From positions 1 to 29,032 of IMG/VR virus record IMGVR_UViG_3300042691_015524: a stretch of 29,032 nt of DNA; one strand, written 5' to 3'. This DNA is from a virus. Made by a program: the position numbers and the translations under genes. Below the pieces are notes generated by a model, which saw only the letters and a list, made by a program, of their open reading frames with translations, was not told where the DNA came from and made no database searches. This document shows, piece after piece, positions 4,411-18,626 of this stretch (positions are counted from its first letter, which is position 1; each line of letters begins with the position of its first letter).

Positions 4411-4656
4411 ATGAACGACATTACGAATTTCAAAGCCATCAGCATGCGAATTCTCGCAGTATTTGCCGCCTCCGCCCTCGGTGTGGTTGGTGCTGGCGCC
4501 ATCGCGGGAGTACCTTTGTGGAAAGCCTGCCTCATGGCCGGTATCGGCGGCATCTCCACGGTGATTGAGGGGTTGGCGCGTGCGTACATTGACGATGGTA
4601 AGTTGGATGTGAACGAGATCAACGCGGTGTTTGACAAGATTGAGAAAACTGAGTAA
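4411..4656 (+). CDS. Small membrane protein, possible holin or holin-like
   Basis: 81 residues with two hydrophobic stretches, about residues 12-32 (ILAVFAASALGVVGAGAIAG) and 34-54 (weaker, ACLMAGIGGISTVIEGLA), joined by a short turn. An acidic C-terminal helix follows: YIDDGKLDVNEINAVFDKIEKTE. Similar two-helix proteins with a conserved ARAYxDDGKL segment occur in actinophages near lysis genes; role unproven. Predicted leaderless from the shared AGTATACT element. The last codons (VNEINAVFDKIEKTE) are repeated, diverged, at 5206-5253 beyond the next gene. The stop overlaps the next start (TAATG). Confidence 0.75.
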   Translation: MNDITNFKAISMRILAVFAASALGVVGAGAIAGVPLWKACLMAGIGGISTVIEGLARAYIDDGKLDVNEINAVFDKIEKTE

Positions 4657-5204
4657 TGCCTGCTTACGAGTACATCAACAAAGATCAAGTCCTCTTCCAT
4701 GGAACCAGTGAACAGAACGTCCACAGCATTCTGAAGACTGGTTTGGAACCCTCCAGTGATCATGTCATTGCCGGGATTCCCGGTGTCTACTTAACTACAA
4801 GTGACGATACCGCCCGGGGGTGGGGAGACCATGTCATTACAGTTAGCCCCACTCGTCGCTTAAAGATACACGGAGACATTGAAGCCAACCCTCATCTTGA
4901 AAACCAACGCCGAACTACTCAGGCACTTCAGGATTATCATGATTTTGGTGCATCTGACCCACAGGAATGGTTGGAATACCATGGTGCTTATTATGGTCTG
5001 GACTCTTCTAAAAGAAGGCACCAAGAAGTACATGACTGGGCTAAAGACAATGCAAACACCGAGAATGTTGCTGACACTTTGTCAAGTTGGGGGTACCATG
5101 GCAACCGCGATAGTATTGCGTCACAAGACAGCACCCCGGATGTCACAATCTACAACCCCCGACATCTGCGTGTAACTGGCGTGAACGGCCCGTCTTTCAC
5201 ATAG
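4656..5204 (+). CDS. Putative ADP-ribosyltransferase-fold (PARP-like) protein, probable moron
   Basis: 182 residues. The N-terminal LFHGTSEQNVHSIL (His15) and GVYLTTSDDTARGWG (Tyr45) match the His and Tyr motifs of the H-Y-[E/x] ADP-ribosyltransferase and RNA 2'-phosphotransferase-like fold: HGTS, I..GL, YLT, A..WG. The C-terminal strand may be DVTIYNPRHLRV. The usual catalytic Glu of motif three is not evident, so activity is uncertain. The start overlaps the previous stop. The gene is flanked by two copies of the 48-bp 3' end of the upstream membrane-protein gene, which marks it as an inserted cassette. Possible targets, such as host or rival-phage proteins, are unknown. Confidence 0.7.
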   Translation: MPAYEYINKDQVLFHGTSEQNVHSILKTGLEPSSDHVIAGIPGVYLTTSDDTARGWGDHVITVSPTRRLKIHGDIEANPHLENQRRTTQALQDYHDFGASDPQEWLEYHGAYYGLDSSKRRHQEVHDWAKDNANTENVADTLSSWGYHGNRDSIASQDSTPDVTIYNPRHLRVTGVNGPSFT

Positions 5205-5954: not shown

Positions 5955-5972
5955 GATGGTACCGGGTGGTGC
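5934..5972. repeat. 11-bp inverted repeat across the tRNA promoter
   Basis: GCACCACCCGG (5934-5944) and CCGGGTGGTGC (5962-5972) are perfect inverted copies separated by 17 bases that include the -10 element. The right arm lies inside the tRNA acceptor and D-stem. It could be an operator, or an RNA hairpin in read-through transcripts that would compete with tRNA folding. Confidence 0.6.
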
Positions 5973-6034
5973 GTCTGGTTGACGCAAGGTGTCTTATATA
6001 CACTCGTAGACGGGTTCAATTCCCGTACCCGGTA
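5961..6034 (+). tRNA. tRNA, anticodon UAU by reading (Ile, AUA codon)
   Basis: A 74-base cloverleaf can be drawn. The acceptor stem is ACCGGGT/ACCCGGT (7 of 7 pairs), the D-stem TGCG/CGCA with GG in the loop, and the anticodon stem GGTGT/ACACT (one G-U) with loop CTTATAT. The variable loop is CGTAG, and the T-arm ACGGG-TTCAATT-CCCGT is canonical. The discriminator is A6034 and no CCA is encoded. The loop gives anticodon TAT (UAU), with U33 and A37 as expected. Oddities: position 8 is G instead of U and position 14 is U instead of A, so the usual 8-14 tertiary pair is missing. The fold is clear; the isotype is less certain because UAU isoleucine tRNAs are uncommon in bacteria. Confidence 0.75.
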
Positions 6035-6047
6035 CTGAGGTTCTTGC

Positions 6048-6207: not shown

Positions 6208-6471
6208 ATGTGGGCCATTACTGTTGCTGAGGGTGTTCAAGCCGCCGCTGTTACTGCGGTAGGCGCAATCATCGTCGCTATCATCACGCGATTTAGCCGT
6301 CAAAATGCCAAAGATCACGCGGTGGTACAACAGAAGTTGGATCGCTTGTCTGATAGCCTTACTGACACGCACACAACAATTGTTGAGGTTCAAGCAGATG
6401 TAAAATACCTGCGTAAAGACCACGACCGTGTTGAGGAGCGACTTAACCGCCATTTGGAGGAAAAGAAATGA
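6208..6471 (+). CDS. Holin-like membrane protein with coiled coil
   Basis: 87 residues. One N-terminal membrane helix at about residues 8-28 (EGVQAAAVTAVGAIIVAIIT) is followed by a charged heptad-type region (residues 35-87; KLDRLSDSLTDTHTTIVEVQ and onwards) ending HLEEKK. This plan, one membrane anchor plus a cytoplasmic coiled coil with DHAxVxxKLDxL, resembles small actinophage membrane proteins annotated as holins or DUF2746-like. It overlaps the next gene by ATGA, and a cluster of small membrane proteins follows. Assignment as holin is inference; the endolysin is more than 11 kb downstream. Confidence 0.75.
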   Translation: MWAITVAEGVQAAAVTAVGAIIVAIITRFSRQNAKDHAVVQQKLDRLSDSLTDTHTTIVEVQADVKYLRKDHDRVEERLNRHLEEKK

Positions 6472-6695
6472 AGACTCAAATTATGGACCAGACCGGCAAG
6501 GGCGCTGTGCTTGCACTCGTTGCTTACGGTTTCCGCAGTAACCCTGAACTCGCCGTAGTCCTTATCCCCGCTATCTCAGCGGCGATGGCATGGGCTTCTA
6601 CCTTGGTGGGTAACCCTAACATCGCCTCTTTCTTTGATAAGGCGACGAAAGAACTGGCCAAGGTCGCAGAGCAAACTGTCGCAAAGAAGAAGTGA
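6468..6695 (+). CDS. Small membrane protein, holin-like
   Basis: 75 residues with one or two hydrophobic stretches, roughly 13-20 and 27-47 (LAVVLIPAISAAMAWASTLVG). An amphipathic Lys-rich C-terminal helix follows (ATKELAKVAEQTVAKKK). The start overlaps the stop of the preceding gene (ATGA), indicating coupling, and its end overlaps the GTG start of the secreted protein gene. Size and topology suit a holin or its partner. No specific family is recognised. Confidence 0.75.
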   Translation: MKTQIMDQTGKGAVLALVAYGFRSNPELAVVLIPAISAAMAWASTLVGNPNIASFFDKATKELAKVAEQTVAKKK

Positions 6696-7909
6696 CTCGC
6701 GCCGCATTTTGGCGCATAACACGAGCACTCCAATGGCTACTCATAGCCGTTGCCATATTCCCCGTTAGTACCGCTAGAGCGGAAGCAGTTACTTATACGG
6801 TTACTGGGGCAAATGACCTTTGGTTTACCTACACGGAACCTTCAGATTTCAAGGTTCGCACTTACGCATGGGAATACAGCATTGACTCCATGCTCTGGTT
6901 GTACGACGCAAACGGTGTCTTACTTGCCCAAAACGACGATTACTTCGGGCTGGACTCTTGGATTGAAATACCCGTCCAACCGGGCTCGTATAGGCTTCGC
7001 ACAGGTGTGTGCTGTGGGAATCCCGACGCATGGTATGGTACGTCATACCGAGTTGAACTAAACACCACCCCCACTAACGCCCCAGAGACAACGACGACAT
7101 GGCCGGAAACTACAACATCCACGACTACGACGACGACCAGTACTACTACTGTCCCCGAAACGACTGTCCCTGTCACGGAACCTCCAACTACCACGAGTAC
7201 CTCAACGACGACCGAGGCTCCGACTACTACGACGACGGAACCTACAACTACGACTGTTACTGTGGCCCCGACTGTTACATCTGTTACCCCGGTACTACCC
7301 AGTGTTCCTGTGGAGCCCACTACGACGGCGCCATCATTGCCGACTGTCCCCACTGTAATACCCCCAACCCTTCCCCCTTCTACTACCACTACAACAACGG
7401 TCGCCTCAACATCTACGAGCACCTCCATACCGGAGTCAACCAGTCCGTCTACGACGCCCCCTGAGGAGCCGGTTACCCCTGAGGAGCCCGCTGACTCAAC
7501 GGAGTCAGTTAACGAGTTGGTCTCGTCTATTGATGAACTAAGTACGGAAGAAATATCTGAACTTATTGATACAATTGACGTTGAAGAACTAAACGTAGAG
7601 GTTATTGAAGAACTCTTCAGCGAAGACGTTTTGGTGGAGTTGACCGAGGCGCAGGCCGAAGTCCTGATTGAGGCTATTGCCGAGGCAGAACTGACCGATG
7701 ATCAGGCAGAAGCCATTGCTGAAGCCCTTAGCGACGCCCCTGAAGCCGTCAAGGAGGAGTTTGAGGCTCAAATAAATGTCTTTGGTGGACAATTTGATAG
7801 TTATGTACCTACCGGGTCATCCGTCTCGGTTGGGGTACGGCGTGTAATAGTCGCGGCAACAGCGGTTGTATTTGCAATGCCCACCCCGACCACCCGAGTA
7901 AGGAACTGA
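6692..7909 (+). CDS. Secreted, membrane-anchored Thr-rich protein (host-like)
   Basis: 405 residues from GTG 6692, overlapping the preceding stop. Residues 1-31 form a signal peptide (basic start, WLLIAVAIFPVS core, ARAEA cleavage region). Residues 32-120 form a beta-rich domain with the DLWFTYTEPS ... WLYDANG ... PGSYRLR pattern of prepeptidase-C-like or bacterial surface domains. Residues about 125-265 are a Thr/Ser/Pro low-complexity stalk. Residues about 268-345 are acidic helical repeats (LTDDQAEAIAEALSDAPEA). A conserved-looking SYVPTGSSVSVGVRR leads into a C-terminal membrane helix. This plan is typical of secreted proteins of aquatic Actinobacteria. It may remodel the surface, block superinfection or help lysis; unknown. 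Confidence 0.8.
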   Translation: MTRAAFWRITRALQWLLIAVAIFPVSTARAEAVTYTVTGANDLWFTYTEPSDFKVRTYAWEYSIDSMLWLYDANGVLLAQNDDYFGLDSWIEIPVQPGSYRLRTGVCCGNPDAWYGTSYRVELNTTPTNAPETTTTWPETTTSTTTTTTSTTTVPETTVPVTEPPTTTSTSTTTEAPTTTTTEPTTTTVTVAPTVTSVTPVLPSVPVEPTTTAPSLPTVPTVIPPTLPPSTTTTTTVASTSTSTSIPESTSPSTTPPEEPVTPEEPADSTESVNELVSSIDELSTEEISELIDTIDVEELNVEVIEELFSEDVLVELTEAQAEVLIEAIAEAELTDDQAEAIAEALSDAPEAVKEEFEAQINVFGGQFDSYVPTGSSVSVGVRRVIVAATAVVFAMPTPTTRVRN

Positions 7910-7912
7910 CAA

Positions 7913-8080
7913 ATGAAGAAACTTTGGAAAGAATCAGCCGCGCTGGCGTGGACGCTGGCTGGAACCGGCCTAGTCCTGATTACTTTGAGCGGCGATGTTA
8001 AGAAGACCGGAATTATTATCTCCGTAGCCGCACTAATCTTCCATCTTGCTGGGGTTTTTACCCCTGACGACAAGGAATGA
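7913..8080 (+). CDS. Small two-helix membrane protein (55 aa)
   Basis: 55 residues; ATG 7913 follows AAGGA and begins four bases after the previous stop. Two membrane helices are visible, at residues 10-25 (LAWTLAGTGLVLITLS) and 33-49 (GIIISVAALIFHLAGVF), joined by a short GDVKKT loop, with charged ends (MKKLWKE, TPDDKE). This is the topology of a class II holin. It is the last of the membrane-protein group before the tail genes. No sequence family is recognised. Confidence 0.7.
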   Translation: MKKLWKESAALAWTLAGTGLVLITLSGDVKKTGIIISVAALIFHLAGVFTPDDKE

Positions 8081-14733: not shown

Positions 14734-14928
14734 ATGTACAGAGAACTAAAATACATAACTCCCCGAGGAGATGTTGTTGATGAACCATGCGTTTATCGCA
14801 TTTCTGACGGGGCAGTAATCCCTTTTGATTTGAATAATATTGATTACCTTGATTACCTACAGTGGGTTGAAGAGGGGAACACCCCCGAACCTTGGATAGA
14901 CCCTAGAGAGGTAACAGATGGCTCGTAA
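14734..14928 (+). CDS. Fibre accessory protein (64 aa)
   Basis: 64 residues from ATG 14734, just after the fibre 3 stop; in-frame starts further upstream lie inside the fibre and are rejected. The C-terminal half, YRISDGAVIPFDLNNIDY ... YLQWVEEGNTPEPW, closely matches the 16132 gene product and resembles phage tail-fibre assembly proteins with a DGAxIPxDxxNxDYxxYLxW core. Overlaps fibre 4 by 11 bases. Probably assists folding or trimerisation of fibre 3 or 4. Confidence 0.75.
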   Translation: MYRELKYITPRGDVVDEPCVYRISDGAVIPFDLNNIDYLDYLQWVEEGNTPEPWIDPREVTDGS

Positions 14929-16132
14929 TGCATTAATTCAAGTACGGCGGGACACCGCCGCTAACTGGACCTCAGTCAACCCTACTCTTGCCTCTGGGGA
15001 AATTGGGCTAGAGACTGACACCGGCAGATACAAGATTGGCAACGGAAGCACACCGTGGAACTCTCTTCAGATATCTCTTAAGGCCGATGAACTCCGCCTC
15101 GGTAATGACTATCTAACCCCATACACCGGCTTTCGCAACGCGATCATCAATGGTGACTTCCGCATCAACCAGCGGGCGTGGTCATCGTCTTCAACAAGTG
15201 CAACCTACGGTTACGACCGTTGGCGAGTATTCCACACCGGTGGTACGGTCGCCATGTCCAGCCAACAGTTTACGGTTGGTTCACCTGCCGCCACAGGCTA
15301 TGAGTCTCCCAATTTTGTCCGACTTGTGACAGGTGGTCAGTCGTCATCTGGAGATTATTCTGTTCTTCAACAGCCAATTGAAGACGCTAGAACATTTGCC
15401 AACAGCACAGTCACGATTTCATTTTGGGCTAAAGCGGCTTCGGGAACACCAAAAGTTGCTGTTGAACTAGCACAGGTATTTGGAACTGGTGGTAGCCCAT
15501 CGGCAGATGTCAATACACTCGGCGGTCAAGTAACACTTTCTACATCATGGACCCGCTATTCGGTGACTATGACCGTCCCTAACGTCAACGGCAAGACGTT
15601 TGGCACGACAGCAAACACCAGTAGCCTAAACTGCAACCTATGGGTTTCGGCGGGTAGCACCTTCAATGCGCGGCTAAATAGCATTGGCACCCAGAATGCA
15701 ACGATTGACTTCTGGGGTGTGCAGGTTGAGCGTGGGTCGGTGGCAACACCGTTTGAGCAGAGGCCGATCCAGACAGAGTTGGCAATGTGTCAGCGGTACT
15801 ACGAAAAATCGTATGCTCTTGCAACCGCACCGGGAACAAACACCGCGGCTGGCCTTATGTTGTTTTTTGGAACTACAGCCGGTTCCAATACTGCACAACT
15901 GGTAGTTAGGTTCTTAGTGCCCAAACGATACACTGCCTACACAGTTACTGGATACAATGGTTTTGGAAACAGCGGTGTATGGGAGTATTATAGAAGTGGT
16001 GCCAGTAATACTTCCGCAGGATTAACCGTAGACCTACAGACGGAACAAAGTTTCCGTGGCTACGTTGAAACTGGTGCGGCCTATGTCGCCGTTCAAATAA
16101 ACGCTCATTGGGTCTGTAACGCGGAGTTCTGA
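14918..16132 (+). CDS. Tail fibre 4 of the mosaic set (Mtd_N-like head, carbohydrate-binding-like centre)
   Basis: 404 residues. The N-terminal ~45 residues, IQVRRDTAANWTSVNPTLAS then GEIGLETDTGRYKIGNGST, match the major-tropism-determinant N-terminal domain type (capsid-distal fibre attachment). The centre, DYLTPYTGFRNAIINGDFRI ... IEDARTFANSTVTISFWAK ... VQVERGSVATPFEQRP ... CQRYYEKS, is homologous to fibre 3. The C-terminal domain (VPKRYTAYTVTGYNGFG) is unique. Start ATG follows AGAGAGG. TGATG coupling to the next gene. Probable receptor-binding fibre. Confidence 0.85.
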   Translation: MARNALIQVRRDTAANWTSVNPTLASGEIGLETDTGRYKIGNGSTPWNSLQISLKADELRLGNDYLTPYTGFRNAIINGDFRINQRAWSSSSTSATYGYDRWRVFHTGGTVAMSSQQFTVGSPAATGYESPNFVRLVTGGQSSSGDYSVLQQPIEDARTFANSTVTISFWAKAASGTPKVAVELAQVFGTGGSPSADVNTLGGQVTLSTSWTRYSVTMTVPNVNGKTFGTTANTSSLNCNLWVSAGSTFNARLNSIGTQNATIDFWGVQVERGSVATPFEQRPIQTELAMCQRYYEKSYALATAPGTNTAAGLMLFFGTTAGSNTAQLVVRFLVPKRYTAYTVTGYNGFGNSGVWEYYRSGASNTSAGLTVDLQTEQSFRGYVETGAAYVAVQINAHWVCNAEF

Positions 16133-16353
16133 TGAAGCACTATTTACACACACTCACAAACCCTGAAGGCGCAGAAACCACAGTCTTGCGTCGTGAGGAC
16201 GGGGCACAAATCCCAATGGACGAAGCCAATCCCGACTACCAGCAGTACTTAGCATGGCTAGAAGAAGGCAACACCCCCGAACCGTGGGGTGAGCCTGATA
16301 CAGTCATCACAAACCCTGAGGAGCACCATGACTACGAAGACCCCCAATACTGA
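16132..16353 (+). CDS. Fibre accessory protein (73 aa)
   Basis: 73 residues, ATG overlapping the fibre 4 stop (TGATG). Core REDGAQIPMDEANPDYQQYL then AWLEEGNTPEPWGEP matches the 14734 product. The extra acidic tail HHDYEDPQY is encoded in the part that overlaps the next small gene. Probable fibre assembly helper. The pair formed with the 14734 gene shows that the accessory genes have duplicated along with the fibres. Confidence 0.75.
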   Translation: MKHYLHTLTNPEGAETTVLRREDGAQIPMDEANPDYQQYLAWLEEGNTPEPWGEPDTVITNPEEHHDYEDPQY

Positions 16354-16477
16354 CAACCCGATTGACATCAACAAGATCGTGGAGAGTCTGTCAAATACAA
16401 TTGCCCAGCAGGCAGTACGCATTGCCATGCTTGAGGCCACCTTGGCGGCTAAGCCCGCAAAAGACACGAATGACTGA
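16328..16477 (+). CDS. Small coiled-coil-like protein (49 aa)
   Basis: 49 residues from ATG 16328, preceded by GAGGAG; it overlaps the previous gene by 26 bases in another frame. A longer in-frame start at 16289 has no ribosome-binding site. After a polar N-terminus (MTTKTPNTDNPIDINK) comes one amphipathic helix, IVESLSNTIAQQAVRIAMLE then ATLAAKPAKDTND. It may form an oligomer and act with the neighbouring fibre genes. No family recognised. Confidence 0.6.
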   Translation: MTTKTPNTDNPIDINKIVESLSNTIAQQAVRIAMLEATLAAKPAKDTND

Positions 16478-16489
16478 GGGTTGGGTGTA

Positions 16490-17299
16490 ATGCCTCGTAA
16501 CGACCTAATCCAAGTACGTAGCGACACTGCCGCCAACTGGGCTTCAGTTAACCCCATCCTTGCCTCAGGCGAGCACGGATTTGAAACCGATACCGGCAAG
16601 TTTAAAATCGGAAATGGTTCAACGGCGTGGTCAGCATTGCTTTACGCTACTGACGCATCTGAAATTACGGGTACCACCCTTCCCGCCAACGTCGTCTCAT
16701 CGTCGCTAACTAGCGTCGGAACTCTTACGTCTTTAAATGTGGCTGGCACAGCAACAGTCCGGGCGGCGTCCTCGCAAGACGGTGTGGCCTTGGCCGGGCG
16801 TACGGGGGGCACTGCTTCTTATGAAGTCACACTACGCCCCACCACATTGACCGCTGACCAGACTCTCACATTACCAAACAACACTGGCGAACTTGTCTCG
16901 TTCACTAGCGCACGAGGCTCTAGTTTTGGTTGGACCAATTACACCACAACCATAACGCAACTAGGAACAGTTACATACGCAACATATGTCAGTAGGTACC
17001 AGCAGATCGGTAAATTAATAAATTGGGAATACGCTTTTTATATTACCGGCACTGGCACCATTAATAACGCTATCCGTATTAATATCCCGCAAACGGCACA
17101 AGGTAGTGCCATATACTCTAATTTTGGCACTATGCACGTTTACGATGCCAGCACTAATACGCATTATTGTGGGCACGCCTTTGCGTACTCAACCACACAA
17201 GCCGCGATGATGTTAGACGGCGGGAACACCTACTTTCAGTCAATTGCGCTCGCTAACGGCGATGTCATCAGTGGCCATATCCTGTATGAGGCGGCATAA
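16490..17299 (+). CDS. Tail fibre 5 of the mosaic set (Mtd_N-like head, SLTSVGT centre)
   Basis: 269 residues from ATG 16490, chosen because it aligns with the fibre 4 start (MPRNDLIQVRSD against MARNALIQVRRD); a TTG nine bases earlier is possible. N-terminal module IQVRSDTAANWASVNPILAS ... TDTGKFKIGNGST. Centre SSLTSVGTLTSLNVAGTATV ... ASSQDGVALAGRTGGT ... LTADQTLTLPNNTG, homologous to fibre 1. C-terminal domain (QQIGKLINWEYAFYITGTG onward) unlike the others, resembling a beta-rich fibre tip. TAATG coupling to the next gene. Confidence 0.8.
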   Translation: MPRNDLIQVRSDTAANWASVNPILASGEHGFETDTGKFKIGNGSTAWSALLYATDASEITGTTLPANVVSSSLTSVGTLTSLNVAGTATVRAASSQDGVALAGRTGGTASYEVTLRPTTLTADQTLTLPNNTGELVSFTSARGSSFGWTNYTTTITQLGTVTYATYVSRYQQIGKLINWEYAFYITGTGTINNAIRINIPQTAQGSAIYSNFGTMHVYDASTNTHYCGHAFAYSTTQAAMMLDGGNTYFQSIALANGDVISGHILYEAA

Positions 17300-17882: not shown

Positions 17883-18626
17883 ATGGGCCGTAAGTACACC
17901 GGATTTGATGGGAACGCCAGCGGTAAGCGTGCTGGTTTGGAAAAGTTTGTTGAATTGACAATCGCGCATTTCAACAAGGGCGTATGGAACAACGGCACAT
18001 GGTCGGTTCGCAACATGAAGAACCCCAACCTTGCCACCCCCCGCCCCTCGGTGCATGGAACCGGCCGCGCCGCCGACCTGTCGTGGCGCAAGACCGGCAA
18101 CAAGGGTTTCGGTGATTACGCGACCGCTTGCCAAGTTGTTGACTTTTGGGTGGCCAACGCTGAACTGTTCCTCGTTGAAGAAATCCACGACTATTGGCCT
18201 GCCCCGCACGGACGCGGCTGGCGTTGTGACCGTTCCGTGTGGACGGTGTATAAGAAGCCGTCCATCGGCTCAGCCCCCGGTGGCGATTGGTTCCACGTTG
18301 AGATTGCCCCCGACCACGCTGACAACCCGGCCTTCTACGAGCAGGCTTTCACCAGTCTTGGCGGCGCACCCGCACCCGCCCCGGCTCCGGCTCCCGCACC
18401 GGCGCCTGCGTCGGCCCCGGTACTAAAGTTTGAGTACCCCGGCACACCTGTCAAGCAGGGTTCCAAGGGTGATGCCGTCAAGTTGGTGCAGGCCATCGTG
18501 GGCGCCAAGCCCGATGGAGACTTTGGCGCCAAGACTTACGAATTGGTTCGCAACTGGCAGAAGTCCAAGGGTCTCACTTACGACGGAGTGGTGGGCCCGG
18601 CCACATGGAAGGCAATGTTCGGATGA
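17883..18626 (+). CDS. Endolysin: M15-like peptidase plus peptidoglycan-binding domain
   Basis: 247 residues; strong TTAGGAGG ribosome-binding site. The N-terminal domain has VHGTGRAADLSW (His58, Asp65) and DWFHVEI (His138, Glu140), the zinc-binding and catalytic pattern of M15/VanY-type D,D- or L,D-peptidases used by many actinophage endolysins. An Ala-Pro linker (about 161-178) follows. Residues about 185-247 are a peptidoglycan_binding_1 domain: VKQGSKGDAVKLVQ, DGDFGAKTYELVRNWQKSKG, DGVVGPATWKAM. No signal peptide, so export needs a holin. Its stop overlaps a tiny membrane-peptide gene (ATGA). Confidence 0.9.
   Translation: MGRKYTGFDGNASGKRAGLEKFVELTIAHFNKGVWNNGTWSVRNMKNPNLATPRPSVHGTGRAADLSWRKTGNKGFGDYATACQVVDFWVANAELFLVEEIHDYWPAPHGRGWRCDRSVWTVYKKPSIGSAPGGDWFHVEIAPDHADNPAFYEQAFTSLGGAPAPAPAPAPAPAPASAPVLKFEYPGTPVKQGSKGDAVKLVQAIVGAKPDGDFGAKTYELVRNWQKSKGLTYDGVVGPATWKAMFG

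Follow-up and report, generated by a model that had tools for sequence, protein, structure and literature searches.

A phage family of secreted, membrane-anchored proteins with exchanged heads and a constant two-helix partner, encoded near lysis genes

The window, a 29,032-nucleotide stretch of viral DNA (IMG/VR record IMGVR_UViG_3300042691_015524), encodes a member of a protein family, here called THR, whose members are predicted to be exported, to carry a variable head on a Thr-rich stalk, and to be held in the membrane by a C-terminal helix, with a small protein of two membrane helices (2TM) encoded alongside. We are highly confident of this anatomy and of the partnership with 2TM, both read from sequence. 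Sequence comparisons across the family indicate that heads are swapped while the anchor and the 2TM partner stay constant. The complete proposal, to which we give slightly better than even chances, is that THR would be a paired, membrane-tied, glycan-binding late envelope component of an actinobacterial phage lysis/egress module.

Results

THR is a conserved gene for a secreted, membrane-anchored protein

The THR open reading frame runs from a GTG start at 6692 to a TGA that ends at 7909 and encodes 405 residues, in agreement with an earlier sequence-only reading of the window. We take it to be a real gene because the frame is kept at 20 viral loci that encode close relatives of the whole protein or of parts of it, and because its dN/dS against the nearest relative, L005, is well below 1 (dN 0.11, dS 0.54 for the whole gene), with mostly silent changes. 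A 121-residue open reading frame in another frame (7099–7464) was rejected as a by-product of the Thr-codon repeats.

Table 1 Features of the THR region and its neighbours in the window.
Feature	Position	Strand	Basis
Holin-like protein, 81 aa, 'hol4' group, recurrent neighbour	4411..4656	+	phrog_443 holin, E 3.6e-5
'TMcc' group protein, 87 aa, one membrane helix and coiled coil	6208..6471	+	
Small holin-like membrane protein, 75 aa, 'hol25' group	6468..6695	+	Hydropathy, neighbours
THR gene, 405 aa, secreted and membrane-anchored, variable head	6692..7909	+	ORF call and relatives
Sec signal peptide, residues 1–30	6692..6781	+	Hydropathy and family conservation
PPC-like beta head with invariant Cys-Cys pair, residues 107–108	6782..7066	+	AlphaFold2, Foldseek, alignment
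Thr/Ser/Pro-rich stalk, residues ~126–272	7067..7507	+	Sequence
Acidic helical region	7508..7780	+	AlphaFold2 model
Conserved anchor motif FxxxFDxYVPxGSxVxVxxRR	7781..7843	+	Family alignments
C-terminal membrane helix, residues 380–394, then basic tail	7829..7873	+	Hydropathy, AlphaFold2 model
2TM partner, 55 aa, two membrane helices, motif LVLITLSG (phrog_29041)	7913..8080	+	Pairing, fused forms
Endolysin with C-terminal PG_binding_1, downstream of tail-fibre genes	17883..18626	+	Homologues next to THR in many further phages

The N-terminus has a charged n-region, a hydrophobic segment (residues 9–27) and a cleavage-like ARA/EA site at 30/31, and a hydrophobic N-terminal segment was detected by hydropathy in 102 of 107 THR family members. 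The stalk has a median span of 169 residues across the family and is followed in the window's protein by an acidic part, which AlphaFold2 models as short helices and then as coil with the anchor motif. The modelled C-terminal helix is 15 residues long and of low model confidence, and falls within a hydropathy peak at residues 378–396. Signal peptide, Thr/Ser/Pro stalk, acidic helical part and C-terminal membrane helix had each been proposed by the sequence-only reading, and all of them hold, as does its description of the protein as phage-borne, secreted and membrane-anchored, given the viral loci, the signal peptide and the C-terminal helix. Weak Pfam matches on the acidic helices (Glycos_trans_3N, GatB, MMS19) were set aside as composition effects.

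The signal-peptide-like N-terminus of nearly all members and the C-terminal membrane helix also argue against THR being a virion structural or tail protein, a reading suggested by the tail genes beside it in the window and the window group. In other groups, THR adjoins the endolysin and not tail genes, and we consider a place in the virion exceedingly improbable.

The head of the window's THR has a PPC-like fold

The head was modelled as an all-beta domain (AlphaFold2 pLDDT 90.3). Foldseek against the PDB ranked the PPC domain 5sv5 first (E 1.8e-4, TM 0.63), with the collagen-binding PPC domains of ColG close behind; VIA Z values to 5sv5 and ColG were 10.0–10.4, and the N-terminal domains of DeCLIC tied with them. 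At the level of fold, these matches agree with the prepeptidase-C-like beta domain of the sequence-only reading. 'PPC-like' is a statement on fold, because a search of the head with the Pfam PPC model (PF04151) gave no match above threshold; an NCBIfam DVUA0089 family match scored 25.5 bits, under its cut-off of 29. The window's head shares the fold of 5sv5 and the ColG collagen-binding domain at 11–18% identity, and sits on a phage stalk rather than on a protease. Proteins, too, are possible ligands of PPC folds (collagenases are an example), which weighs somewhat against the proposal that the window's own PPC-type head binds a glycan.

THR is paired with a two-helix membrane protein

THR loci flanked on each side by 3 kb or more all have 2TM (58/58), and in 52 it is fused to THR or lies no more than 60 nt away. 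When loci were sought by 2TM alone, 57 of the 58 that were examined had THR as the next gene upstream. The exception is L262, where THR lies one gene further upstream, and the interposed gene (L262:3433-4995), within a lysis cassette, encodes an LPXTG-type wall protein (LPVTGSDTG..., with a Big_1-like domain below cut-off), the only true LPXTG protein found beside THR. Fusions of THR and 2TM occur in several distinct contigs and in the GenBank phage DSL-LC01, the fused polypeptide running from signal peptide through head, stalk, helix and linker to 2TM. Because these forms run on into 2TM, we infer that the C-terminal helix passes the membrane from outside to inside, with the linker inside, so that THR would be oriented head-out, C-in.

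The fused forms bear equally on the resemblance of THR to LPXTG wall-anchored proteins, which likewise run from a signal peptide and a head through a Pro/Thr-rich stalk to a hydrophobic C-terminal helix with a basic tail. THR instead has a YVPxGS motif in which T and G are not conserved, and some homologues continue into 2TM; a sortase (LPXTG) signal in the window's THR was ruled out by the motif, the T/G variation and the fused forms.

A class II holin would be a small protein with two membrane helices, N-in/C-in, encoded beside the endolysin. The two helices of 2TM are evident from hydropathy, and its gene adjoins an endolysin in several lineages. Searches of PHROGs, Pfam and NCBIfam returned no match of 2TM to a holin family, and we gave up the idea that 2TM, as seemingly the sole multi-helix protein of some cassettes, is 'the holin', since other membrane-protein ORFs are present there. 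The fusion of an ectodomain to a holin-like hairpin and the strict THR–2TM pairing would suit an outside sensor of lysis timing, in which the head would sense glycans, neighbours or superinfecting phage and gate the hairpin, like the T4 RI/T lysis inhibition turned outward. As 2TM matches no holin family and no conserved signalling element was identified, we regard such a sensor as improbable.

THR and 2TM lie near lysis genes in many gene orders

The gene order in the window is holin-like (4411), TM-coiled-coil (6208), holin-like (6468), THR, 2TM, tail genes and endolysin (17883), so that THR does sit among membrane-protein genes, as the sequence-only reading had it. Its account of overlapping starts and stops is right upstream, where the stop of the preceding gene and the start of THR share 4 nt (GTGA), and wrong downstream, where the next gene begins at 7913, 3 nt past the THR stop. 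An endolysin, holin-like or TM-coiled-coil gene was found within 4 kb of the THR–2TM pair at 50 of the 58 loci, in ~20 distinct local gene orders; these loci are interdependent, since sets of neighbours are in part co-inherited. Two types of endolysin occur near THR, a VanY type and one with a C-terminal PG_binding_1. The label 'holin-like' denotes size, hydropathy and position, with a PHROGs holin match in one group only. Among the neighbours, PHROGs calls the holin-like group a nuclease and the VanY endolysin a tape measure, names that we judged misleading.

Several observations speak against a lysis role. The window's endolysin is ~10 kb from THR, past the tail-fibre genes; in L094, the homologues of the holin, coiled-coil and endolysin genes are on the strand opposite to the pair, as is the annotated endolysin of DSL-LC01; and at 8 of the 58 loci no lysis gene was recognised in the 4 kb around the pair.

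Other genes in these regions were recorded in passing. The window has a tRNA-Ile (anticodon TAT, 5961–6035) beside the membrane-protein cassette, an ORF at 4656–5204 whose PARP-like match is weak (E 1e-4, under the cut-off), possibly a phage ADP-ribosyltransferase, and two fibre genes (14918–17299) that begin with an Mtd_N domain, one of them also with CBM_4_9. In L160, a secreted subtilase (L160:9757-10998; Peptidase_S8, E 3e-39; nearest NCBIfam mycosin, below cut-off) directly follows a fused THR–2TM gene. Small lipoprotein genes with a lipobox and a C(S/D)DxYRxP motif are found in four THR-bearing phages (L013:7197-7352, L069:8495-8650, L018:7234-7377 and L050:6224-6382), where they overlap a membrane-protein gene in a layout resembling Rz/Rz1 spanins. 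Genes that by eye look like glycosyltransferases and methyltransferases lie near THR in L142, L151 and their relatives, with the Thr stalk or the fibres as possible targets of modification.

Heads are exchanged independently of the anchor

Heads in the first set fell into four groups by sequence: PPC-like, PA14-like, SUEL-containing and one more. SUEL lectin, PA14 and LCCL heads, all from glycan- or ligand-binding families, were above Pfam cut-offs, and other heads resemble CBM_4_9 or beta-helix modules, judged by eye only. Exchange is visible at the DNA level between L063 and L152, which have DNA in common through the signal peptide and again over 4.2 kb that begin at the stalk, with different heads between, while the heads of the window and L006 are 98% identical and their anchors 66%. 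Over 45 interdependent pairs from 10 genomes, head identity showed no correlation with anchor identity (rho 0.02).

In the same 45-pair comparison, with fibre similarity scored on DNA, the similarity of distal tail fibres was linked to anchor identity (0.70) and not to head identity (Spearman -0.11). L005 and L008, for example, have 99% of the head in common and no fibre DNA in common. Covariation of head and tail fibre, hinted at by the window and L006 sharing both, was dropped over the 45 pairs.

This comparison weakly disfavours the main rival to a lysis/egress role, receptor masking or superinfection exclusion, in which the displayed head would cover or compete for the receptor, sparing infected cells re-infection and saving virions from loss on debris. 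Surface display, variable heads of glycan-binding type and the position of THR just ahead of tail genes in the window group are in its favour, and late expression would suit the protection of progeny; it leaves the obligate 2TM partner and the lysis cassette unexplained. We consider masking possible yet unlikely, and the outward sensor the more speculative of the two.

THR is a phage family of probable actinobacterial hosts

Profile-derived patterns located the C-terminal part at no fewer than 334 IMG/VR viral loci, the head at no fewer than 345 and 2TM at no fewer than 515. We found no description of the THR family in Pfam, PHROGs or NCBIfam, nor in literature searches. The window's protein had no match among GenBank phages, and DSL-LC01, reached through other members, was the only GenBank phage found with a family member: WJZ48438.1 (OQ999401), annotated 'hypothetical', which at 944 residues, fused to 2TM and with a different head, contrasts with the 405 residues of the window's protein. 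DSL-LC01 was assembled from a lake metagenome, and its predicted hosts are Actinomycetia (PMC10611076).

No relative turned up when 84,980 species genomes were scanned once with the C-terminal profile pattern. This is a strict pattern that recovers 44 of 98 viral members, so that the result is strong but not final. Genome scans with the C-terminal and head profiles found no actinobacterial relative, and the head relatives they returned were distant PPC-type domains, nearly all of planctomycetes. The sequence-only reading had called THR a protein of host type and expected a host origin, for which the hundreds of viral loci and the C-terminal scan give no support. It had named close homologues in phage virions only as a finding that would speak against it; as far as origin is concerned, the close homologues found are indeed those of phages, with nothing that marks THR as a virion protein. 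The case that THR is a phage family and not a host-derived protein, argued here from sequence searches, has the same strength as the C-terminal scan. Capture of a host surface protein (moron) without a part in the phage cycle would explain the host-like plan, and PPC, PA14, SUEL and LPXTG modules are also cellular, but hundreds of phage relatives stand against none in the 84,980 genomes scanned with the C-terminal pattern, and both the 2TM pairing and the position are conserved, which makes such a capture very improbable.

WhiB, an actinobacterial hallmark, was found in 32 of 45 THR-bearing records, the window's 29-kb fragment being without it; Corynebacterium served as the one positive-control genome. 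The window's terminase is closest to those of Streptomyces phages (46%). Because of the WhiB genes and the terminase, the hosts are very probably actinobacteria, as the sequence-only reading had supposed.

Discussion

Because of its anatomy, its pairing with 2TM and its gene neighbourhood, we propose that THR is an envelope component of the lysis/egress stage, a role that we consider evenly balanced between likely and unlikely. The stalk of ~140 residues, ~40 nm if extended, would be long enough to cross the cell wall, with the head bound to a glycan on the current host's surface and THR tied to the cytoplasmic membrane by its C-terminal helix and the 2TM hairpin. Together with holins and endolysin, THR would then help to detach or open the outer envelope as the wall is cut, an action also put forward for corynephage LysZ. 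In this proposal, differences in surface glycans from one host strain to the next would account for the exchange of heads.

LysZ of corynephages CL31 and Cog is described as a lysis protein of 177 residues with one membrane helix, N-in/C-out, and its proposed targets are lipid-anchored glycans on the outer side of the membrane (PMC13056207). A deletion phenotype of small plaques, rescued in lipoglycan-deficient hosts, would mark a lysis factor of this kind. LysZ is the closest tested analogue of THR in role that we found and, like THR at most loci, is encoded with lysis genes. Compared with LysZ as portrayed there, THR has a signal peptide, a C-terminal anchor, a Thr stalk, swapped heads and an obligate 2TM, and in place of the single N-in/C-out helix its signal peptide and C-terminal helix predict a head-out, C-in protein. 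Because topology and architecture differ, we do not claim THR as a LysZ member and liken the two by description. LysF1a/LysF1b, the holin-like pair of mycobacteriophages Girr and NBJ, combines a two-helix N-in/C-in protein with a one-helix charged protein in one cassette, by description comparable to 2TM and the TM-coiled-coil gene; unlike THR, no secreted ectodomain protein is described there (PMC13056207).

LysZ and LysF1 are the few tested cases that we found of actinobacterial phages passing the outer envelope. THR and 2TM form a widespread, previously undescribed pair near lysis genes in phages that probably infect uncultured aquatic actinobacteria, its modular heads evolving independently of the anchor. 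Hundreds of viral contigs can be annotated by means of the pair, which also suggests that a host-like plan can be that of a phage family rather than of a captured host gene. Tentatively, and with doubts that outweigh our confidence, THR and 2TM may represent a new class of phage egress, in which a secreted ectodomain that spans the wall and bears exchangeable glycan-binding heads would be joined to a holin-like hairpin, by coupling or by fusion, and so build recognition of the host surface into the lysis machinery.
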